In this document: piece by piece, positions 12,106 to 35,656 of the stretch
Numbering within the stretch: the stretch's first letter is position 1
How the letters are laid out: each line of letters opens with the position of its first letter
Assembly: GCA_012959605.1 (NCBI GenBank)
Contig: DUCU01000007.1
Location: 1-39,022 of the forward strand
Direction of reading: 5' to 3'
Length of the DNA stretch: 39,022 nucleotides
Source: Dehalococcoidia bacterium
Lineage (GTDB): Bacteria; Chloroflexota; Dehalococcoidia; Lucifugimonadales; UBA3495
Position numbers and translations under genes: made by a program
The notes under the pieces: model-generated
Database searches by the model: none
What the model was told of the DNA's origin: nothing
Seen by the model: the letters and a program-made list of their open reading frames with translations, nothing else

Positions 12106-12221
12106 CGACGAGCAAATACGACTTTGGTGGACGCTTTAGCCCAGACACCTATATCATCCTATGACTAGATGTAGGTATTTGGCGTGCGGTGACCACCAGC
12201 ACGCGCGAATCAGAGGAAGAT

Positions 12222-13067
12222 ATGGCGTCATCAACCAATCCGAAATGGTCGGAATTGGAAAAGATATTCTCCGGTATGGAATCGGTAATCGTTGCGTTTT
12301 CGGGCGGCGTGGATAGCACCCTCGTAGCGGTTGCAGCCCATAAGGTCCTAGGATCCAAGGCTTTGGCTGTGACTGCAGTCTCGCCAGCCCTGGCCAAACG
12401 GGAGCTTGAGGAAACCATCCGGATAGCCGAGAGCTTCGGGTTTGCCCACCGGGTGATTCACACCAACGAGATGGCCCAAGAAGGCTACGTGGCCAATTCT
12501 CCGCAGCGTTGTTACTTCTGCAAGACCGAGCTTTACTCCCAACTCACGGACCTGGCTGACAAAGAGGCTTACCAGTGGGTGGCCAACGGAGCCAACACCG
12601 ACGACCTTGGCGACTACCGCCCCGGTCTGCAAGCAGCGTCTGAACACAAAGTCCGCAGCCCTCTAGTTGAGGCTGGACTCGCCAAGGCCAACGTGCGTGA
12701 AATTGCGAAGGCATTGGACATTCCCATCTGGGACAAACCAGCCCAACCCTGTCTGTCGTCGAGGATTCCCTACGGCACGCCGGTGACAATTGAGAACCTC
12801 TCCAAGATTGAACAAGCGGAAGATTATCTGCGCGGCTTGGGCCTAAAAGAAGTGAGGGCCAGGCACCACGACCGTCTGTGCCGTATTGAAGTCGGCGAAG
12901 ACGAGATGGAGTTCGCATTCGGGCACCGCCAGGAAATAGTCTCGGCCATCAAGAAGATCGGTTATTTGTGGGTGTCTTTGGACATGTCGGGGCTGCGTTC
13001 CGGGAGCCTGAACGACCAGCTGAAATTGACCGAGACCCCCCCTTTAAAAAAATTGACGTTGTGCTAA
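12222..13067 (+). CDS. larE: LarE, sulfur transferase for nickel-pincer cofactor synthesis
   Basis: 281 residues. LarE is a PP-loop ATPase that adenylates the carboxylates of pyridinium biscarboxylate mononucleotide (made by LarB) and turns them into thiocarboxylates. The PP-loop SGGVDS is at residues 27-32. Cys177 in KPAQPCLSSRIPYG corresponds to Cys176 of Lactobacillus plantarum LarE, which gives up its sulfur. Cys97 and Cys100 (RCYFCKTELY) together with Cys177 form the three-cysteine set of LarE forms that carry a 4Fe-4S cluster and act catalytically; this assignment is from the known family. The ATG at 12222 has GAGG at 12213-12216; a GTG at 12189 would add eleven unconserved residues. 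It opens the larE-larC-larB operon, 7 bases before larC. Confidence 0.93.
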   Translation: MASSTNPKWSELEKIFSGMESVIVAFSGGVDSTLVAVAAHKVLGSKALAVTAVSPALAKRELEETIRIAESFGFAHRVIHTNEMAQEGYVANSPQRCYFCKTELYSQLTDLADKEAYQWVANGANTDDLGDYRPGLQAASEHKVRSPLVEAGLAKANVREIAKALDIPIWDKPAQPCLSSRIPYGTPVTIENLSKIEQAEDYLRGLGLKEVRARHHDRLCRIEVGEDEMEFAFGHRQEIVSAIKKIGYLWVSLDMSGLRSGSLNDQLKLTETPPLKKLTLC

Positions 13068-13074
13068 AGAGCTG

Positions 13075-14283
13075 ATGCCAAACGAAAAAATTGCCTATAT
13101 CCAGTCCATCGGCGGGGCCAGTGGGGACATGATGCTGGGCGCACTCACCGACTTGGGGTTGCCCGTCGATTTCCTGGAAACCGAGCTAGCCAAGCTGAAC
13201 CTGGACGGCTATAAACTCGAGGCTCGCCAAGAGACTCGCTGCGAGATGCGCGGCACCTACTTGAACGTGGAATTGTTCGACCGGGCCAAGTATTCTCCCA
13301 AGCAATTTTTGAGATCGGTCGATTACAGCGATTTGTCCGATTCCGTGAAGGACCAGTCCTGCCTGATTCTGAAGGCGTTGTGGGCGGCTGAGTGCCGGGT
13401 CCACGGCGAAACAGAAGATGTCTTGGAGTTGGAAGAACTGGGCAGCGTAGACACGATTGTCGACGTGGTTGGCTCATGCATTGGATTTGAATACCTGGGA
13501 GTCACTGATATTCACTCCGGACCACTCGTGATTGGCAACGCCATGCCACCACGGTGGGCTGGCGGCTATTCGAATCCTGCGCCAGCCACCCTGGAGTTAA
13601 TCTCGGCTTTCGGCGCGCCAGTGGTGGGCGACAAACCGATGTACGAAGAAGCAGGTGAACTCACCACACCAACAGGTGCCGCTCTGATTACCACCTTGGC
13701 CTCATTTGGCCGCCCCGCATTCAGCGTTGACCGTGTTGGGCTTGGACTGGGCACAAAAGACCCTGCTGGTTTCCCCAACGCTCTTCGGATTTGGCTGGGC
13801 GCGATGGAGCAATCTGATGCCGTTTCAATCACGCCACAAGACCAAGTGGTGCTCCTAGAAACGAACTTGGACGATGTCTCCGGTCTAGTCCTGGGTTACG
13901 CCCAAGAAAGACTATTTGCTGTGGGCGCGCTAGACGTCTGGAACACGCCCATCCAGATGAAAAAGAACCGTCCAGGCACGCTGCTCTCAGTTCTAGTACC
14001 CGAGGACAAAGAACGCCTGGCAACGGAAGTTATTTTGCGGGAAACACCCACGCTAGGTATACGCACTCGCCTAATAGACCGGCACGTTGCTGACCGTCAG
14101 ATGGTCTCCATTGAAACCGATCTTGGCACTGTGGCCGTAAAGCTAAAGTTACTGGAAGGCCAAGCCATCAGCGCGGCACCGGAGCCCGATGATGTGCGCC
14201 GTATCGCAATGGAGACGGGAGCGCCATTCCAAGAGGTCTATCAAAAAGTCTCGGACGAGGCACGGCGGCAATTACTCAAGTAG
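13075..14283 (+). CDS. larC: LarC, nickel insertion protein (single uninterrupted frame)
   Basis: 402 residues. LarC inserts Ni into the pincer nucleotide in a CTP-dependent reaction. The N-terminal domain opens with IGGASGDMMLGALTDLG and contains VIGNAMPPRWAGGYSNPAPATLEL (read in parts) and GELTTPTGAAL. The C-terminal domain has ETNLDDVSGLVLGYAQERL, TPIQMKKNRPGTLLSVL and RETPTLGIR, all family hallmarks. In L. plantarum the gene is split into larC1/larC2 by programmed frameshift; here it is one frame. An oddity: the segment usually read as V-H-F-H-E-[VL]-G is V-L-E-L-E-E-L-G (about residues 118-126), so both histidines are replaced by Glu. The ATG at 13075 follows AAGAG. The next gene, larB, is in the same reading frame after the TAG stop. 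Confidence 0.93.
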   Translation: MPNEKIAYIQSIGGASGDMMLGALTDLGLPVDFLETELAKLNLDGYKLEARQETRCEMRGTYLNVELFDRAKYSPKQFLRSVDYSDLSDSVKDQSCLILKALWAAECRVHGETEDVLELEELGSVDTIVDVVGSCIGFEYLGVTDIHSGPLVIGNAMPPRWAGGYSNPAPATLELISAFGAPVVGDKPMYEEAGELTTPTGAALITTLASFGRPAFSVDRVGLGLGTKDPAGFPNALRIWLGAMEQSDAVSITPQDQVVLLETNLDDVSGLVLGYAQERLFAVGALDVWNTPIQMKKNRPGTLLSVLVPEDKERLATEVILRETPTLGIRTRLIDRHVADRQMVSIETDLGTVAVKLKLLEGQAISAAPEPDDVRRIAMETGAPFQEVYQKVSDEARRQLLK

Positions 14284-14328
14284 CAGTTATATCTAGTTAG
14301 GATCAATCACGGACAGGGGAGCAAAACC

Positions 14329-15114
14329 ATCGAAGAGAGTCGCCTCCGGGAACTTCTGCTCACGTTCAAAGAGAACGGCATAACTGTGGATACAGCCGTG
14401 GAGCAGTTGCGCGACCTGCCATACCAGGATCTCGGCTTTGCCAAGCTGGACCACCACCGTGCTCTGCGCACTGGTTGGCCCGAAGTTGTCTTTGGCAAGG
14501 GTAAGACGCCCGAACAGGTGGCCGAGATCGTAAAAGGGTTCAAGGGTCGTGGACACCCGGTATTGGTCACTAAAACCGACCAGGAAGCCTTCCAAGCGGT
14601 ATTGCAGGAGACTCCGGAGGCAGAATTCCACCAGCTACCCAAAGCCATCGTGGTTCCAGCACCCCAACCAAAACCGTTACAAACTGGCATCACAGTCGTC
14701 ACTGCCGGCACCTCCGACCTGCCCGTAGCAGAAGAAGCAATGCTGACGGCATCGCTCATGGGCAACGATGTCACGCTAGTTAGTGACGTAGGTGTGGCTG
14801 GTCTACACCGGCTGCTAGACCAAATGCCGGTGCTAAAAAAGGCCCGCGTGCTCATAGTCGTGGCGGGGATGGACGCCGCATTGGTCGGCGTAGTAGCGGG
14901 AATGGTGTCGGTTCCAGTCATAGCCGTGCCCACCAGCACCGGTTACGGAGCTAGCTTTGACGGTCTGGCCCCGCTGCTCAGCATGTTAAACAGTTGCGCC
15001 CCCGGCGTGTCGGTCGTCAACATCGACAACGGCTTCGGCGCCGGTCACCTAGCCGCCCTCACCAACTGCGTTGGGGCAGATAACTCTGGTGGCAACGATG
15101 AGTCCGCGCTTTGA
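14329..15114 (+). CDS. larB: LarB, pyridinium biscarboxylate synthase, with probable ATC start
   Basis: About 261 residues of the LarB (PurE-related) family, which carboxylates nicotinic acid adenine dinucleotide and cleaves its phosphoanhydride in the first step of nickel-pincer cofactor synthesis. Visible are DLGFAKLDHHRALRTGWPEV, GKGKTPEQVAEI, and the PurE-like C-terminal part VVAGMDAALVGVVAGMVSVPVIAVPTSTGYG (read in parts) with NIDNGFGAGHLAA. The first GTG in frame is at 14386 and would cut off the conserved N-terminal helix (SRLRELLLTFKENGIT). No ATG, GTG or TTG precedes it up to the larC stop. An ATC at 14329 stands where the Met is expected, seven bases after AGGGGAG (14315-14321), a very strong ribosome binding site. 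I therefore take ATC as start; CTG at 14356 is the alternative. Confidence 0.85.
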   Translation: MEESRLRELLLTFKENGITVDTAVEQLRDLPYQDLGFAKLDHHRALRTGWPEVVFGKGKTPEQVAEIVKGFKGRGHPVLVTKTDQEAFQAVLQETPEAEFHQLPKAIVVPAPQPKPLQTGITVVTAGTSDLPVAEEAMLTASLMGNDVTLVSDVGVAGLHRLLDQMPVLKKARVLIVVAGMDAALVGVVAGMVSVPVIAVPTSTGYGASFDGLAPLLSMLNSCAPGVSVVNIDNGFGAGHLAALTNCVGADNSGGNDESAL

Positions 15115-19795: not shown

Positions 19796-20275
19796 TTAGA
19801 TTCCGAAAACACTGATGCCAGAAGGTAACAAAAGTAGGCTAACGGGAGACCGACTAGACTCCAACTCCTGGTACCCTATTTTTTGTGCCGTGACCATGGT
19901 GGCAAAAAGAGAGGCGTATTCAGGCTTAGGTTCGATATCGACGAACTCTTTCCCGGCGATGGTGATCCGCAGGAATACCTGCCGGACCAGGGCCTCCCGT
20001 TCTTCGTGGGTCACCCCGGGGTGAAGCCAGAGGGCTGGCAAGTCTTCCAGGAAGTTTGCGGCGCGCTCCAGGTTGGGCAGGTGAGTAGGCATGACGATGG
20101 TGGAGGTGTGCACCTTGAGTTGGCGCATGATGATCCCCCGCTCCCGGCGGTATTCATCATCGGATATGTCCCCCCATTGGTGCTGCTTGCGGAGGTTCTC
20201 CAGTGCCCGCCGCAGCCGTCCTCCCTGTCCCCGGTCCTTAATCATCCGGTTCGGGTTCAGGTGTAAACGCGGCAT
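19796..20275 (-). pseudogene. C-terminal remnant of a large serine recombinase
   Basis: About 160 codons give a charged coiled-coil-like stretch, LRRALENLRKQHQWGDIS then DDEYRRERGIIMRQL, followed by LERAANFLEDLPALWLHPGV, THEEREALVRQVFLRITIAG and VDIEPKPEYASLF. This is the recognisable C-terminal end of large serine recombinases (GDIS-x-x-EY and EALVRQVF motifs). The catalytic resolvase domain and zinc domain are absent; upstream on this strand the sequence passes directly into the 3' end of the MFS gene, which it overlaps in another frame. It is a relic of a former mobile element. Confidence 0.75.
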
Positions 20276-21536
20276 GTTCCCCCGAATGCGCTCGTGGGTC
20301 GGCTGCGCCACCCGCATGACGCTTAACCAGAGGTGTCAGGACCATCACCAGCAAGATCAGCAATATCCCGGCCCCGGCGTTTAAGCCGATGGCAATGCCA
20401 ATGCCGAAAGTGCTGGCGATTGCCCCAATCTCGGTCCCACCGACCAAGTGGCCCATGCCGTTGACTACACCTTGTGCTCCCATGGTCCGACCCCGCATCT
20501 CCGGAGCCGACTCCAACAACAATATGGTGCTTTGCATGGTGCTGAACCCAGCCTGCCCCAGCCCGCCCAACAGCAGTAGTGAGAAAGAAACAGCAAACCA
20601 CGGAGACCAGGCCACCAGAGTCACCATTACCGCCACCAACAACGCCCCGATGGCGAATACTCGGCCGTAATGGCCGATATTCCGCCGGACCGCCAAGATT
20701 ATCCCGCCAAGGAAATTGCCGATGCCCTCGGCGGAGCCCAACAATCCACCCAGCGTCGGCCCGACCATCAGCAGGTCACTGGCAATTACGGGAATGAAGT
20801 ACTGGATCGGGAAAACCAACGAGTTCATGATGAGCGACATGGAGAGCACGCCCAGCACCATCCGGTTGCTCATGGAGTGTCCAAGTCCTTCCCGGAGACT
20901 TCGCCTCACTTGCACCGGCGCGCCCTCGCCCAGCGGTCGGTGGGGCAGCTTGAGCCGCGAGATCATCAGGAGTGACACCGCGTCCAGAGCCAATATGACG
21001 GCGTAAGAGCCAACAAATCCGGTAGAGGCGATCAGCACGCCGCCAATCAGGGGTCCTGCAATCTTCCCACTATTGTTGTTGATCGTTTCAAGGGACATGG
21101 CGCTGGCCAAACGTTCCCGGCCGGCCAAGTCAAAAATGGCGGTGCGCCGGGAAGGGTCATCCAGCGTCTTTGCAGAGCCCTGGAGAAATATGGCAATGAA
21201 GACATGCCAAGGTTCGATGGCGCCCATGACGAGCAGCAACAAAAGGACGGTCGAAATCACAGAGTATATGGCGTGGACGCCGATCAATACCCGGCGCCGG
21301 TCCAGCCGGTCTGCGACCAACCCGGCGAAGAGGGAAAAGAAGGGCCTGGGAAGATTCAGGAAGACCGCGATCAGACCTACTTGGAACGGAGAGTCGGTCA
21401 TCCGGAGGACAAGGTAGCCCAGAGTCAACAGTTCCATTCGGCGGGAGATTTCATTTACCGCCTTGACGGTCCAGAGAGTGCGGAAGTCCCCGTTTTTGAG
21501 GACGTCAAACGCCGGCATTGTGGTCAGGTCAGGCAA
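20238..21536 (-). CDS. MFS transporter
   Basis: 432 residues with about 11-12 hydrophobic segments typical of a major facilitator of the EntS/MFS_3 type. The start FDVLKNGDFRTLWTVKAVNE is the usual N-terminal motif, followed by GLVADRLDRRRVLI, the cytoplasmic loop 2-3 motif (residues about 73-86), and SGKIAGPLIGG in helix 5. The substrate is unknown; relatives export siderophores, drugs or other small molecules. The last ~27 residues (RHAGGAADPRAHSGEHAAFT and on) are hydrophilic and encoded by DNA that in another frame encodes the serine-recombinase remnant, so the native C terminus was probably replaced at a recombination junction. The upstream gene on this strand is the MmgE/PrpD gene, 112 bases away. 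Confidence 0.9.
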   Translation of the reverse strand: MPDLTTMPAFDVLKNGDFRTLWTVKAVNEISRRMELLTLGYLVLRMTDSPFQVGLIAVFLNLPRPFFSLFAGLVADRLDRRRVLIGVHAIYSVISTVLLLLLVMGAIEPWHVFIAIFLQGSAKTLDDPSRRTAIFDLAGRERLASAMSLETINNNSGKIAGPLIGGVLIASTGFVGSYAVILALDAVSLLMISRLKLPHRPLGEGAPVQVRRSLREGLGHSMSNRMVLGVLSMSLIMNSLVFPIQYFIPVIASDLLMVGPTLGGLLGSAEGIGNFLGGIILAVRRNIGHYGRVFAIGALLVAVMVTLVAWSPWFAVSFSLLLLGGLGQAGFSTMQSTILLLESAPEMRGRTMGAQGVVNGMGHLVGGTEIGAIASTFGIGIAIGLNAGAGILLILLVMVLTPLVKRHAGGAADPRAHSGEHAAFTPEPEPDD

Positions 21537-26356: not shown

Positions 26357-26443
26357 GCCGAGGTGGTGGAACTGGTAGACACGCGGTCTTGAGGGGGCCG
26401 TGGGCGTAAGCCTGTGTGGGTTCAAATCCCACCCTCGGCACCA
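26357..26443 (+). tRNA. tRNA-Leu (GAG)
   Basis: Acceptor GCCGAGG (26357-26363) pairs with CCTCGGC (26433-26439), followed by A and an encoded CCA. The anticodon arm CGGTC-TTGAGGG-GGCCG gives anticodon GAG. It has a long variable arm and the T-loop TTCAAAT, as expected of a class II tRNA. It is the first of a three-tRNA cluster. Confidence 0.95.
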
Positions 26444-26512
26444 TTGCTCGATAGCCTATCTCGGTGTATTTCCTGCCTGCAGGTTAGACTGTCTAGATGT
26501 ACAGCATAACGA

Positions 26513-26588
26513 GGCGACGTAGCCAAGTGGTTAAGGCGGAGGTCTGCAAAACCTCTATTCGGCGGTTCGAATCCGCCCGTCGCCTCCA
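26513..26588 (+). tRNA. tRNA-Cys (GCA)
   Basis: GGCGACG (26513-26519) pairs with CGTCGCC (26578-26584); T discriminator and CCA follow. The anticodon loop in GAGGT-CTGCAAA-ACCTC gives GCA. T-loop GTTCGAATC is canonical. Confidence 0.96.
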
Positions 26589-26770
26589 TTTTCATCCCCG
26601 AAAGTTAATCTCCAACTGGCCTTTCAGGCATCACTCGTAAAAATCCTGGGGCTCGTGGCCGGCACTTCTCAAGATTATCTTCTCCAAAACTTATCCCTGT
26701 ATTTACCTCAGGTATCTCTTTAATGCCCAAGCACCTCAGAAGTTAGGCCGGTGTAACCCCAGCTTACAAA

Positions 26771-26856
26771 GCCGGGATGGCGGAATGGCAGACGCGGCGG
26801 ACTTAAAATCCGCTATCTTAACGGATGTGTGGGTTCGAGTCCCTCTCCCGGCACCA
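26771..26856 (+). tRNA. tRNA-Leu (UAA), target of an integrated element
   Basis: GCCGGGA (26771-26777) pairs with TCTCCCGGC-type 3' end; CCA is encoded at 26854-26856. The anticodon arm GCGGA-CTTAAAA-TCCGC gives TAA (UAA). A long variable arm and T-loop GTTCGAGTC are present. Its last 57 bases recur at 30237-30293, the sign of integration into this gene with restoration of an intact tRNA. Confidence 0.96.
26800..26856 (+). repeat. att-like direct repeat, left copy (inside tRNA-Leu)
   Basis: These 57 bases, from the anticodon arm to the CCA end, recur at 30237-30293 with one mismatch (C26810 versus T30247). The copies are 3,437 bases apart. Confidence 0.85.
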
Positions 26857-27243: not shown

Positions 27244-27408
27244 GCGATAGCATTTTTTGGAATCTAAGCACGCGCTGGTTTTCATTTATAAATTTTCAGA
27301 TACTCCATTGCCAACAGGACGTGGTGTATGATTGTTCCGATGTGAGCACTTATCTGTAATTGCGCTCCAAGTCGACCCTAAATCCGACTCAACAATGAGG
27401 CATTGGCC

Positions 27409-28848
27409 ATGGTCCGCTGGGCAGACATACATCCAAGTGAACGGGCAAGTTTTACCGAACGATTATCGGGACGGTACAAGCAGCCCTTTGAAAAGACCCC
27501 CTGGGTTGACGCGCCGAACTTGGTCGACGCCCGGGTTGGCATAGTCACCACTGCCGCGATTCACCGGTTTGATGACCGTCCGTTCACCGGACACGCGGGA
27601 GATTACCGGATTATCCCCGGCGACATCGACTACAAAGATTTGTCGATGTCCCATTCCAGCACCAATTTTGACCGCAGCGCCTACCAACAAGACGTCAATG
27701 TCTGCTTCCCATTAGACCACCTGAGAACCCTGGTCCAATTGGGAGAGATTAAGTCTGTGTCAGACTGGCACTACTCATTCATGGGATCCACTGCTCCTGA
27801 ATTGATGGAACCGGCCGCGCGAGAGGTATCAAAACTTCTGCTCGGAGACAACGTCAATCTGGTGCTATTAATACCTGTATGACCCGGTTGTTCCTACGCC
27901 GTGAGCATACTTTCTCAGTACATTGAACGACCCGTTAGCGAAGGCGGCGCCGGTATCGCAACCGTTGCCCTGAACCTAATCCGGCCAGTTGCCGAGGCAA
28001 TCAAGCCTCCCCGCGCACTTTGGGTTCCTTTCCCATTTGGCCGTCCACTGGGGCCGCCAAACCGTCCCGATATACAAATAGACGTTCTGCGTCAGACTTT
28101 GGCGTTGGTAGACCAACCCGCCGCCCCAGCGTTAGTCGACTACCCCGATACATTTGAAGAAGAGATTCCTCCCGAAGAGGGTTGGTCGTGTCCCGTATCT
28201 TTCCCCAACCCAGAACCCAAAACAGAATTAGATGCATTAAGGGCCCAACTTAACTCTGAAGCCGAGCTACTACGACCCTGGTTTGACGAAGGGATTAGAG
28301 CCCGAGGCCGCACCACCATTGGAATCAGCGGCAAAGGGGTTGATTCCATCGGCGAGATGCTTGGCATCATGGCCTCGTTCTCCCTGGACGGAGAAATGGT
28401 AGTTCCAGACGGTTACGAGCAGCCGATGCCCCAATTGCTGCGTTATCTAACCGCTGATATCAGGGCTTTTTACTCTGAGGCTGCCATCTCAAAACCAGGG
28501 GTTCAGTTCCCCTCTCCAGATGACTTGGAAGAGTGGTTTTTCTTGGAGACCGTTGCCGGCGATGTCTTATACCAAGTCCGCGAGCGACTCTTGAACACAG
28601 ATATGCTCATCCTTTTGGCCAATGGTCTGGGTGATGATGCGATTGACACTCAGCTGATCCTGGTGCCGGGTTCCACTGCAAACGCAGCGGATGAACTTGT
28701 CCGAAACCCTGGGATGAGTCGAGAACTGCTACAAAAATCTGCTGACGGTTCCACCGGGTATCCCGTGGGTCGGTTCTCCAGGACTATCGTGCCAACCACT
28801 ATGCAGGACCGAAGGAGTGAACGAGCCGAGTTTGCCAACGCTTCTTGA
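27409..28848 (+). CDS. Selenoprotein of the glycine/sarcosine/betaine/D-proline reductase B family
   Basis: The frame opens at the ATG at 27409 (TGAGG at 27396-27400) and is open to 28848 except for one TGA at 27880-27882. Just before it stands NLVLLIPV and after it PGC, so reading TGA as selenocysteine gives Sec158 in a U-x-x-C motif, the redox motif of GrdB/PrdB-like selenoproteins. The sequence on both sides fits one protein: HSSTNFDRSAYQQDVNVCFP (about 82-101) and DWHYSFMGST before the TGA, RALWVPFPFGRPLGPPNRPD and VDYPDTFEEE after it. The last ~200 residues (ELLRPWFDEG, RGRTTIGISGKG, LRYLTADIRAFYSEAA) form an additional helical domain. The family's founders reduce glycine, betaine or proline with a catalytic Sec; the substrate here is unknown. 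It lies within the tRNA-Leu-bounded element. Confidence 0.85.
27884..27934 (+). promoter_or_regulatory. Candidate bacterial SECIS stem-loop
   Basis: Beginning just after the TGA, GGTTGTTC (27886-27893) pairs with GAACGACC (27925-27932), eight pairs with one G-U. Inside it TGAG (27902-27905) pairs with CTCA (27914-27917), with an 8-base apical loop about 23-30 bases from the TGA. Distance fits bacterial SECIS elements, but the loop lacks an obvious leading G, and the structure is drawn by eye only. Confidence 0.35.
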
Positions 28849-29822: not shown

Positions 29823-30134
29823 TTAACCTTGAGGTGGAGTTGATGACTTCAGTTCGCAGGCATTCAACAATCTGGGTATATCGCCAATCTTTACCATTGG
29901 CCTCAGCGGTTTAGGCACTTTAATCCGAAGTCCCTGACTCGGATTCCCAGCTACAAACCCACGTTCTTTGGCCCAGAAATAGAATGCCTTCAAAGCTCGC
30001 AAATAGGCTTGTCTCCCACCAGGACCGCAGGGGAGGATCCGCAGTGCGGCTGCCACTTCATCACTTGTAAAATTTAATAACGGGCGTCTTGCCGATGCAA
30101 CGAATCGAGTCAGGTGCCAGCATAAAATTCGCAC
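29823..30134 (-). pseudogene. Truncated tyrosine recombinase (integrase), core-binding domain only
   Basis: About 100 codons match the N-terminal SAM-like core-binding domain of phage/XerC-type integrases: CWHLTRFVASARRPLLNFTS, DEVAAALRILPCG, GGRQAYLRALKAFYFWAKER and GFVAGNPSQGLRIKVPKPL. The frame stops after LLNACELKS, so the whole catalytic domain (R-H-R-Y) is missing, and a TAG lies just upstream of the GTG at 30134. It is adjacent to the att-like repeat at 30237, exactly where an integrase gene sits in a tRNA-integrated element. It is non-functional. Confidence 0.8.
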
Positions 30135-32097: not shown

Positions 32098-32865
32098 TTG
32101 AATATCAAGAAACCAAAGCTCATCGGCATGGTTATTGCTATGAGTCTATTTGCCATGGTGGCTGCGGCAGGCTGCGGAGGCGGCGACCCGGAAGAACTGG
32201 ATATTCCAGTTAACATCGAGGCTGGGAAAATGAGCCCCGAAACCATCAAGGTCCAACAGGGCGACATGGTTACACTCAAGATTAAGGCTGATGAAGGCGG
32301 AGAATTCCACCTACACACCTACGATATAGAAGCTGAAATTGAAGCCAACATTCAGACGGACTTCTATTTTGTAGCCGAAGCAACCGGTCGATTCAAAATC
32401 ACTTATCACCCTGTAGGTGAAGGTGAGCACGATGAAGGCAAGCACGACGAAGATGGCCATGGCGGCATCTTCAAATCCCACGAGCTAGCCCCTGGCGCAA
32501 CCTTCAGCTACGAGATTGAACACCATCAAGCCGATGAGACCATCCCTTTCCACAGCCATCTCCGGCCAGCGTTGAACGGAAACATAATCGTCTCCAAAGA
32601 TGAGGGCCAGATTGACGCTGTTGCCATCGAATACACCGACGAAGGTACCACTCCCCACGAAATTCACGTTGGATTAGGCACAGTAATTACATGGACAAAT
32701 AACAGTTCCGTTCCTCAAACCGTTATCAGTGGCCTCCACGCTGACATGGTCATGAACGCCAACGGGGGCATAGACAAAGACATGGATATGGATATGGACG
32801 AAGACGAACACGATGACGAAGAGGCAGAGATTGAAATCGGATTCGTAGAGGTGCAACCGAGGTAA
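32098..32865 (+). CDS. Cupredoxin-like lipoprotein with His/Met/Asp-rich tracts
   Basis: 255 residues from a TTG with ACGGAG upstream (32086-32091). The N-terminal lipobox is LFAMVAAAGC, with Cys26 as lipidation site, so the protein is probably anchored to the outer face of the membrane. Two cupredoxin-like regions follow: one with MSPETIKVQQGDMVTLKIKA and EFHLHTYDIEAE (about residues 42-80), the second with EYTDEGTTPHEIHVGLGTVI then TWTNNSSVPQTVISG (about 180-215). Between them lies a His/Asp-rich insert (GEHDEGKHDEDGHGG). The end is an unusual acidic and Met-rich tail (DKDMDMDMDEDEHDD). Such composition suggests copper, or another divalent metal, binding. It lies 35 bases before the polytopic membrane protein. 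Confidence 0.85.
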   Translation: MNIKKPKLIGMVIAMSLFAMVAAAGCGGGDPEELDIPVNIEAGKMSPETIKVQQGDMVTLKIKADEGGEFHLHTYDIEAEIEANIQTDFYFVAEATGRFKITYHPVGEGEHDEGKHDEDGHGGIFKSHELAPGATFSYEIEHHQADETIPFHSHLRPALNGNIIVSKDEGQIDAVAIEYTDEGTTPHEIHVGLGTVITWTNNSSVPQTVISGLHADMVMNANGGIDKDMDMDMDEDEHDDEEAEIEIGFVEVQPR

Positions 32866-32900
32866 CGGCTAAAACCTGAAGCCTTGGTTGCAGTGCCAAC

Positions 32901-34442
32901 ATGAAAAATCTGAAAATTATCCTCCCCGCTGTGGCCGCAGCGGGGAGTCTGATGGTCTGGCCAGCCTACGCCCATGGATTCGGTGAGCGTACAGAGTTAC
33001 CCGTTCCGCTGGGGTATTTCCTAATTGGCGCAGGCTTTGCGGTAGCTCTTTCATTCCTTTTTATCAGCGTATTCGTTAAGGCGAGCGGGGAATCGTCATA
33101 TCGGCGATTTAATCTACTTGGCAGCCGTTGGTCTCAAGCGACTCTCACGTCTCCCATTCTGATGACTCCAATCAAACTGTTCTCCGTGTTTCTGCTTGGA
33201 CTGGTGATTGCGACTGGGTACGCCGGAGAATCGGAGTCGTTGCTCAATTTCAGCCCCACGTTTGTCTGGATCATTTGGTGGGTGGGTATGTCCATTTTCA
33301 TCGCCTTGATTGGCAATATTTGGGCTTTGGTCAACCCCTGGAAAATAATTTTTAGTTGGGCAGAGTGGTTTTACCAAATCGTCCGCCCCGGTCGAGGCTT
33401 ATCGCTGAGCCGGGATTACCCAGCCAAATTTGGCATCTGGCCGGCTTTGATGTTATTCGTCCTCTACACTTGGATTCAAGACGCCTATACCAAGGGTGAT
33501 ATTCCGTCCCAGATCGCAACAATGGCAGTCGTCTACTCGATAATCACTCTGGGTGGGATGTTTATATTCGGCAGGTACCAATGGCTACGCCATGGCGAAG
33601 TGTTCTCCGTCGTATTTGGGGTGTTGTCTCGCTTCTCAGTCACGGAAATCCGCATCAGGAGCCAAGATTCATGCCCGGTATGCTCAGTGGATTGCCGGAA
33701 CCTCTCCGGAGAATGCATCGATTGCTACGAGTGCTTTCAGAGGTCTTCCGACCGAGAGCTAAACCTAAGACCATTCGCTATCGGACTAAGCCGGAACGAA
33801 AAGGTCACCAACGACATTCTAGCGCTGGTGGTCTTGATGCTGGCCACGGTAACTTTTGATGGGTTTAGCGCTACCCCAGCGTGGGCCGAGTTCCAGACCT
33901 TCATCCTAGATACGTTTGGGAATGGTGGAAGTGAGGTCTTTAACAGCCTGGTACTAGCTGACACCATGGGAGTGATCTTGTTTCCGTTGGGTTTCTTCAT
34001 GGTCTATCTGTTCTTTTCCAAGCTCATGGCAATCTCAGTCGAGGGCGAAGTAAGCACGTTGGAAATGGCCCGGATATTTGGGTATTCATTAATCCCCATT
34101 GCCCTGGCCTACAATATTGCCCACTTCATAACCCTGCTCCTCATACAGGGCCAGTTGATTGTCCCATTGGCTTCTGACCCCTTCGGCTCAGGGTGGAATA
34201 TTTTTGGGACGGTTGATTACTCGATAAATATCGCAATCATTAACGCCCGCATCCTTTGGTTCTTATCCGTAGGATTGATCGTATTGGGGCATATGTTAGC
34301 CGTATACCTGGCCCACCTAGTGGCCATTCGTACGTTCAGCAATCGGGCAATGGTCTTAAAGAGCCAATACCCCATGCTCACTCTGATGGTGGTTTACACC
34401 CTAATCAGTCTTTGGATCCTAGCCCAACCAATCGTTCAATAA
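32901..34442 (+). CDS. Polytopic membrane protein with six-cysteine loop
   Basis: 513 residues; signal-like start ending AYAHGFGE, then about nine or ten transmembrane segments. The opening GFGERTELPVPLGYFLIGAG matches an uncharacterised family that databases often label 'fenitrothion hydrolase'; the role of the label here is unproven. A soluble loop about residues 255-280 carries C-x2-C-x3-C-x6-C-x2-C-x2-C (Cys258, 261, 265, 272, 275, 278), which could bind zinc, iron-sulfur or copper. Other conserved-looking segments are VNPWKIIFSWAEWF and ALAYNIAHFITLLL. It is transcribed with the upstream lipoprotein. The combination points to redox or metal handling at the membrane rather than hydrolase activity. 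Confidence 0.85.
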   Translation: MKNLKIILPAVAAAGSLMVWPAYAHGFGERTELPVPLGYFLIGAGFAVALSFLFISVFVKASGESSYRRFNLLGSRWSQATLTSPILMTPIKLFSVFLLGLVIATGYAGESESLLNFSPTFVWIIWWVGMSIFIALIGNIWALVNPWKIIFSWAEWFYQIVRPGRGLSLSRDYPAKFGIWPALMLFVLYTWIQDAYTKGDIPSQIATMAVVYSIITLGGMFIFGRYQWLRHGEVFSVVFGVLSRFSVTEIRIRSQDSCPVCSVDCRNLSGECIDCYECFQRSSDRELNLRPFAIGLSRNEKVTNDILALVVLMLATVTFDGFSATPAWAEFQTFILDTFGNGGSEVFNSLVLADTMGVILFPLGFFMVYLFFSKLMAISVEGEVSTLEMARIFGYSLIPIALAYNIAHFITLLLIQGQLIVPLASDPFGSGWNIFGTVDYSINIAIINARILWFLSVGLIVLGHMLAVYLAHLVAIRTFSNRAMVLKSQYPMLTLMVVYTLISLWILAQPIVQ

Positions 34443-34661
34443 GTTGGATGGCCGGTTGGTCTCGCAAAAAGACTAGCTGGCCGATCTTACAAACATAGGC
34501 CCCACTTCAGCCCCGCCAATTACTATTTACTCAAACTGAAATACCGATTAAATTGACTCGGCGTCCAGTTACTGTTAAATTTGCCCGCCTTGACTCTGGA
34601 TACAGCGGTCTTTAGAGTTAAGCAAGATTAAGTATTGCTAACTGGGACATGCAGGTGAATC

Positions 34662-34787
34662 ATGCGTAGATTTCTGGTTCCATTGGTGTTTGTGGCTTTG
34701 TTGACCATTGCTGCAGTAGTACCCGTTGCTGCCAGCGCCCCGGATGCCGCCCCTTCTCACTCCAGCGAAGAATGCAGCAGCATCTAA
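34662..34787 (+). CDS. 41-residue secreted peptide
   Basis: Reads MRRFLVPLVFVALLTIAAVV, then PVAASAPDAAPSHSSEECSS and I. A basic start and a hydrophobic core end in an AxA signal cleavage site (about ASA at residue 26), leaving a mature peptide of about 15 residues with one His and one Cys. AGGTGA (34653-34658) precedes the ATG and a terminator (34876) follows. It sits in the metal-like group and might bind metal, but its size leaves this as inference. Confidence 0.5.
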   Translation: MRRFLVPLVFVALLTIAAVVPVAASAPDAAPSHSSEECSSI

Positions 34788-34875
34788 ATTAGGCTGACAC
34801 CTGCGGGTTAATTCCGCATCTACTGGTATTCGCCTCGTGCGCAGACCACATAACTTAAAATAAACTCGGCTATTC

Positions 34876-34909
34876 GGCCCCGGTTCATCACTTTGGACCG
34901 GGCCTTTTT
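34876..34909 (+). terminator. Terminator before the TauE/SafE gene
   Basis: GGCCCCGGT (34876-34884) pairs with ACCGGGCC (34897-34904), one bulged C, followed by T5 (34905-34909). Confidence 0.75.
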
Positions 34910-34924
34910 ATTGGCGATTTAATC

Positions 34925-35656
34925 TTGGAAGAAGAAATAATAAAAATAGCGATCGTCGTGCTTGCCACGGCGGTTGGGTTTACCATTGCCGGGGTTGCTG
35001 GCTTTGGTGGCGGAGTGGTCGCACTACCGGTATTGGTTTGGGCGTTTGGCGTGCGCGAGGCCATCCCCATCTTGACCATCTCTCAGCTTTTCAGCACTGC
35101 TTCCCGTGTCTGGCTGCACCGGGCGGCAATGGACTGGCAAGTCATCCGCAATTTCTCAATTGGGTCGGTGCCGTTTGCCCTGCTGGGCAGTTTATTTTTC
35201 GTTTCCATAGATACTGCGGTGCTGGTACGAATCTTGGGCGTAATGATGCTCTTGTTCGTGGTCTACACCCGAATGCCCATTGGACGAAATTTCAAGATGA
35301 AACTCTGGGGGTTCATACCACTTGGGTCTGCCACCGGTTTCGCTTCCGCGTTCCTGGGAATTCCCGGCCCTTTCTCCTCAGTGTTCTATCTGGCTTACGG
35401 GTTGTCTGCCAGTGCCTATATAGGCACGTCTGCGCTGGGAATGAGCGTGATACAAATCCCAAAGTTAGTGGTATTCAGCACCAATGACCTGTTCGTATTT
35501 CGGGTCTTGGCGATGGGTGTTGGTCTGGGTTTACTCGCTGGTGCATCGGCTTTTCTGGGAAAGGTAATTCTTGGGCGAATCCCAGAAGCGGTGTTCCCCA
35601 GAATAATCACTGCCATGCTGCTGATCTCAGGCGTGGTACTGTTGGTTCGTGGGTAA
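34925..35656 (+). CDS. TauE/SafE family membrane transporter
   Basis: 243 residues with about eight hydrophobic segments, the layout of the TauE/SafE (sulfite exporter-like) family: AGVAGFGGGVVALPVLVWAF (residues about 23-42) and its repeat ATGFASAFLGIPGPFSS (about 136-152). The family exports sulfite, sulfoacetate or related anions, and some members are linked to metals; the substrate is not visible. A TTG at 34925 is taken as start; no ribosome binding site stands out and an in-frame later start is possible. The terminator immediately upstream means it needs its own promoter, which I cannot identify. Confidence 0.88.
   Translation: MEEEIIKIAIVVLATAVGFTIAGVAGFGGGVVALPVLVWAFGVREAIPILTISQLFSTASRVWLHRAAMDWQVIRNFSIGSVPFALLGSLFFVSIDTAVLVRILGVMMLLFVVYTRMPIGRNFKMKLWGFIPLGSATGFASAFLGIPGPFSSVFYLAYGLSASAYIGTSALGMSVIQIPKLVVFSTNDLFVFRVLAMGVGLGLLAGASAFLGKVILGRIPEAVFPRIITAMLLISGVVLLVRG

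Follow-up and report, generated by a model that had tools for sequence, protein, structure and literature searches.

Selenoproteins with a UxxC motif (U, selenocysteine) that are annotated as proline reductase PrdB form the third most abundant known selenoprotein family in the Sargasso Sea data, with 42 genes (PMC1088965), and PrdB is among the major selenoprotein families of the GOS metagenomes, with 235 Sec and 110 Cys forms (PMC2398784). PrdB is listed as a recognised selenoprotein family in reviews of 2022 and 2026 (PMC9312934, PMC13188914), and enrichment of SelA/SelB has been described for sponge symbionts (PMC5649159). The closest described systems are PrdB of Clostridia, the Sec subunit of D-proline reductase (TIGR04483), and GrdB/GrdF/GrdH, selenoprotein B of glycine, sarcosine and betaine reductase (PF07355, TIGR01918). 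Here we describe a gene in a 39,022-nt window, by which we mean the whole stretch of DNA analysed, on contig C7 of a draft MAG of what is most likely a SAR202-like member of the Dehalococcoidia (Chloroflexota; 2.81 Mb, 91.7% complete, 3.9% estimated contamination). The Sargasso and GOS proteins are, like the product of this gene, marine UxxC selenoproteins of PF07355, and they very probably belong with it to the same broad family. Because ocean metagenomes have yielded UxxC 'PrdB' selenoproteins from 2005 onwards, the window gene belongs to a known kind.

Gene structure and the in-frame TGA

The gene starts with an ATG at 27409 and ends with a terminal TGA at 28846-28848, and its sole internal stop is the TGA at 27880-27882. 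Reading this codon as selenocysteine places Sec at residue 158 in the context LLIPV-U-P-G-C. The first-pass annotation of this DNA had described a frame open but for one TGA, in which Sec would create a U-x-x-C motif; reading the letters bears out both statements, the motif being U158-P-G-C161. The features of the locus are as follows.

27409..28848, + strand: full predicted selenoprotein gene, 479 aa, Sec158, with a PrdB/GrdB-like N-terminal part and a helical C-terminal domain (frame, profile matches, relatives)
27394..27401, + strand: putative ribosome-binding site, GAGG inside, with the ATG about 8 nt downstream (sequence)
27517..28116, + strand: PrdB/GrdB-like domain, residues 37-236, across the TGA (TIGR04483, E 9.5e-27; Pfam GRDB)
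27880..27882, + strand: codon of U158, in-frame TGA predicted to be decoded as selenocysteine (homologue comparison)
27889..27891, + strand: TGT codon of Cys161, partner of U158 in U-P-G-C, invariably Cys in alignment A1 (sequence, alignment)
27890..27914, + strand: bacterial SECIS-like hairpin, stem 27895-27899/27905-27909, loop 27900-27904, conserved G 27901 (position-fixed hairpin test)
28132..28845, + strand: C-terminal domain, residues 242-479, helical in the model, containing Cys261 at 28189-28191 (model, alignment)

Judged by base composition, the 321 codons that follow the TGA would remain open by chance with p ~2e-6. The part downstream of the TGA is conserved in relatives, with an identity of 63-75% over the whole protein, and in homologues the last ~240 residues are conserved along with the N-terminal part. 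In NG86 comparisons of the window gene with eleven close family members, dN was 0.11-0.24 upstream of the TGA, 0.12-0.22 in the 79 codons after it and 0.20-0.38 in the C-terminal domain, in each case far below dS, which on either side of the TGA exceeded 1 or was saturated.

As had been expected of a standard gene caller, a mechanical ORF caller returns two ORFs, 27403-27882 and 27901-28848. This split, together with a start codon only 18 nt past the TGA, is what would be seen if the UGA did end translation and the GTG at 27901 started a second, separate protein. We consider such a pair of proteins very unlikely, given that the Cys homologues in other Chloroflexota are single continuous proteins, that the PrdB domain would be severed in mid-fold just ahead of the motif helix, that conservation starts right at the UGA and includes C161, and that the hairpin described below is conserved in Sec members only.

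Predicted selenocysteine decoding in the family and in the genome

The family is carried by 36 of 60 related genomes, and nearly all matches contain one internal TGA. Every one of the 57 extracted sequences, taken from this genome (the window copy included) and from its relatives, has the TGA at the same place within a U-P-x-C motif. A wider contig scan with one 10-residue pattern gave 409 relatives, and the best 80 of these 409, a set that partly overlaps the 57 sequences (some genes are the same), all have the TGA; these best 80 lie in records titled Chloroflexi, Alpha-, Beta- and Gammaproteobacteria, Desulfobacterales, Acidimicrobiales and, once, a Clostridiales MAG. In a sample of the phylum, homologues were present in 67 of 301 genomes. 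All ten stop-free homologues examined carry TGC or TGT (Cys) at the Sec column, with the motif C-P-L-C, and a clostridial prdB locus of Acetoanaerobium, unannotated in the sequence used, has a TGA at the equivalent place (U-G-T-C). Positions 158 (Sec), P159 and C161 are among those invariant in the alignment. Alignment to family members, a check proposed with the first-pass annotation, therefore puts TGA or Cys codons exactly at the column of the window TGA; the close relatives have TGA there, and not the TGG/TGC that had been named as refuting. Degenerate C-terminal fragments of the family with TAA stops were also observed, at G006:C43:17107-17349, about 7 kb from an intact family copy, and at G010:C97:178-498.

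The shared column bears directly on the possibility that the gene has decayed, or that the TGA is a sequencing or assembly error, with the downstream half as a remnant. Family remnants are indeed known in relatives (the TAA-stop fragments of G006 and G010), and the window copy lacks one pair of the SECIS stem; nevertheless, the same TGA recurs in all 57 + 80 (partly overlapping) sequences, which come from independent assemblies, the codons after the TGA show a dN far below dS, and the gene contains no further stop or frameshift, so that we regard decay or error as extremely unlikely.

The first-pass annotation had also suggested looking for a SECIS element after the TGA. Because an Rfam search of 27850-27990 gave no SECIS match and minimum-energy folding of 60 nt gave inconsistent structures, we adopted a position-fixed hairpin (counting the TGA as 1-3: stem 16-20/26-30, loop 21-25, loop G at 22) and compared it with a null of 1000 resamplings, in which synonymous codons were resampled with the protein kept and sequences were treated without correction for kinship. 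In 132 distinct Sec sequences, the proportion of paired cells was 0.929 vs 0.616 under the null (maximum 0.656 of 1000), all five stem pairs were formed in 86 sequences vs at most 22, and the loop G was present in 130. In ten Cys homologues, by contrast, pairing equalled their own null (0.48 and 0.476, respectively). Exchanges among G-C, C-G, A-U and U-A occur at columns 16/30, 18/28 and 19/27. Neither the Cys control nor the compensatory exchanges between distant subfamilies depend on relatedness. At the family level the hairpin is therefore conserved beyond coding constraint, and its small apical loop, which contains a G, is as described for bacterial SECIS elements (PMC1088965).

The window copy keeps four of the five core pairs and the loop G (27901); its central pair, 27897/27907, is a C-A mismatch, produced by a Val-to-Ile change in codon 27907-27909. 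As this pair is broken in only 2 of the 132 Sec sequences, the mismatch may lower the efficiency with which the window copy is decoded.

Decoding of UGA as Sec had been said to need selA, selB, selC and selD elsewhere in the genome, and all four were found: selA (563 bits), selB (350 bits, cut-off 242), selD (375 bits, with its own in-frame TGA) and a tRNA-Sec with anticodon UCA. They are located on contigs other than that of the window, selD lying on C133 together with one paralogue of the window gene. From this machinery and the hairpin, both observed, we infer that the organism decodes UGA as Sec. The selD gene (C133:12395-13318) is itself a predicted selenoprotein gene with an HCAGU motif, and the PrdB-like paralogue is situated about 8 kb away. 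In a six-frame protein search, four further family members were detected in the same genome, making five in all, each of the four with exactly one TGA; a more distant paralogue on contig C28 is without C261, and the fifth member, on contig C54, misses the C-terminal domain entirely.

Stop usage in 31 selected window genes was TAA 18, TAG 11 and TGA 2, and the rarity of TGA as a stop would fit a genome-wide reassignment of UGA, for example to Trp or Gly, instead of site-specific Sec. This explanation has a vanishingly small probability in our view, considering the full Sec machinery and tRNA-Sec, homologues with TGA at the catalytic position only and one TGA per gene, a replacement residue that is Cys and neither Trp nor Gly, and the termination of two window genes, this gene among them, in TGA. 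The proposal of an unannotated selenoprotein is supported by the Sec genes, the shared TGA/Cys column and the conserved hairpin. We are highly confident that the gene encodes one 479-residue selenoprotein with a redox role, a confidence that applies to the role in general and not to any substrate.

Domain architecture and relation to PrdB and GrdB

Clostridial PrdB is homologous to the window protein over residues 37-236, with Sec in the same UxxC column and UGA/Sec decoding common to both. Whereas PrdB of Clostridia measures ~240 aa, the window protein adds a C-terminal domain of ~240 residues; and unlike the PrdB system, the window gene has no prd operon around it and its PrdA partner was not found. 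Homology to GrdB/GrdF/GrdH lies around the UxxC, at residues 84-215, where the alignment takes in no more than the last third of GrdB; the N-terminal part of GrdB is missing from the window protein, and GrdA/GrdE were not found. The scores reach 94 bits for TIGR04483 (PrdB equivalog; cut-off 300), 34.1 bits for TIGR01918 (GrdB; cut-off 65.45) and 24-27 bits for PF07355 (Pfam GRDB; cut-off 22), the last of these in the stretch before Sec. The earlier statement that both flanks of the TGA match one family holds for residues 37-236, which TIGR04483 covers across the TGA, and fails for the C-terminal ~240 residues, which match no Pfam or NCBIfam model.

In the genome (91.7% complete), there was no match to PF09338 (PrdA/GrdE), for which the same search gave matches in 4 of 25 other genomes carrying the family, and none to PF04723 (GrdA), for which the control genomes of that search were also without a match. 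The first-pass annotation had placed the gene in the family of glycine/sarcosine/betaine/D-proline reductase selenoprotein B; a functional identity with these reductases is not supported, as the scores do not reach the curated cut-offs and searches for the partner subunits gave none. Were the gene to encode a genuine subunit of D-proline (or glycine/betaine/sarcosine) reductase, this would account for PrdB being the best profile match (E 9.5e-27) and for the UxxC position shared with clostridial PrdB. However, the 94 bits fall well short of 300, PF09338 and GrdA are unmatched here and PF09338 is matched in only 4 of the 25 other family-carrying genomes, the protein has an extra ~240-residue domain, and no prd/grd genes were recognised nearby; we thus judge it very unlikely that the window gene is such a subunit.

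The AlphaFold model of the full protein (mean pLDDT 83.5, pTM 0.81) shows two domains, the N-terminal one alpha/beta and the C-terminal one helical, and the latter, modelled alone, has a mean pLDDT of 77.9. In the model, the U-P-G-C motif would lie at the start of a helix that follows a beta strand of the alpha/beta domain. Cys261 is invariant in the 41 aligned members of the long-form branch. Sequence searches of the PDB gave nothing meaningful, and no clear PDB match to the C-terminal domain. With Foldseek/VIA-align, the full model matched generic alpha/beta folds (best Z 8.3, rmsd 3.9, 154 residues), and the C-terminal domain had no match above Z 4.9, which is no evidence for a new fold.

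Gene neighbourhoods and proposed function

The neighbours of the family differ between lineages. A GMC oxidoreductase is encoded near 8 of 11 close-subfamily loci, and none was seen in the 39,022-nt window; selD lies near 13 homologues, and in Proteobacteria the neighbouring SelD is fused to a pyridine-nucleotide oxidoreductase domain. Neither of these two syntenies fixes a function. An AhpC/TSA peroxiredoxin gene is located near 7 of 10 Cys-type homologue loci of other Chloroflexota.

Elsewhere in the window, three adjacent genes at 12189-15114 (+) resemble larE, larC (PF01969 Ni_insertion, E 1.1e-106) and larB (AIR carboxylase-like), a trio resembling that of nickel-pincer cofactor synthesis. 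Genes at 32098-35656 (+) encode a cupredoxin-like protein, a 513-aa membrane-like protein without a Pfam match and a TauE/SafE permease. Two short ORFs, at 29823-30134 (-) and 19796-20317 (-), look like recombinase fragments by eye, with no match for either in a Pfam search; the former is situated ~3 kb downstream of three tRNA genes (26357-26856).

A role as a thiol/selenol reductase is likely for the window protein because of its Sec-Cys pair and its homology to PrdB/GrdB. In the mechanism that we propose, SelB with Sec-tRNA(Sec) would bind the hairpin just past the UGA at 27880, and selenocysteine would then be inserted at residue 158. By analogy with the family, the selenol would most likely attack an electrophilic small-molecule or disulfide-like substrate, Cys161 would most likely resolve the selenenyl adduct, and a thioredoxin-type donor would most likely re-reduce the Sec-Cys pair. 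The helical C-terminal domain with Cys261 would probably, at a guess, make contacts with substrate, partner or oligomer, and the protein would work without PrdA/GrdE, the partner in the classical reductases, for which the genome gave no match. More broadly, we give about an even chance to the view that this large PrdB-like branch, found in several phyla, is a stand-alone reductase with its own C-terminal domain, a third conserved Cys and a new substrate, acting without pyruvoyl partners and obscured by gene callers that end the ORF at the UGA.

The literature searched contained no paper on SAR202 selenoproteins and no description of the C-terminal domain or of a SAR202-type genome with five members of the family, and both the domain and the five-member set seem not to have been described before. 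This SAR202-like Chloroflexota genome would thus encode five Sec-containing PrdB-like proteins and a Sec-containing SelD, and a Sec-unaware gene caller would truncate or split all six genes. Proteins of the long form, with its C-terminal domain, occur in several phyla and always have Sec where examined; therefore, assaying one such enzyme would give a function to hundreds of genes.
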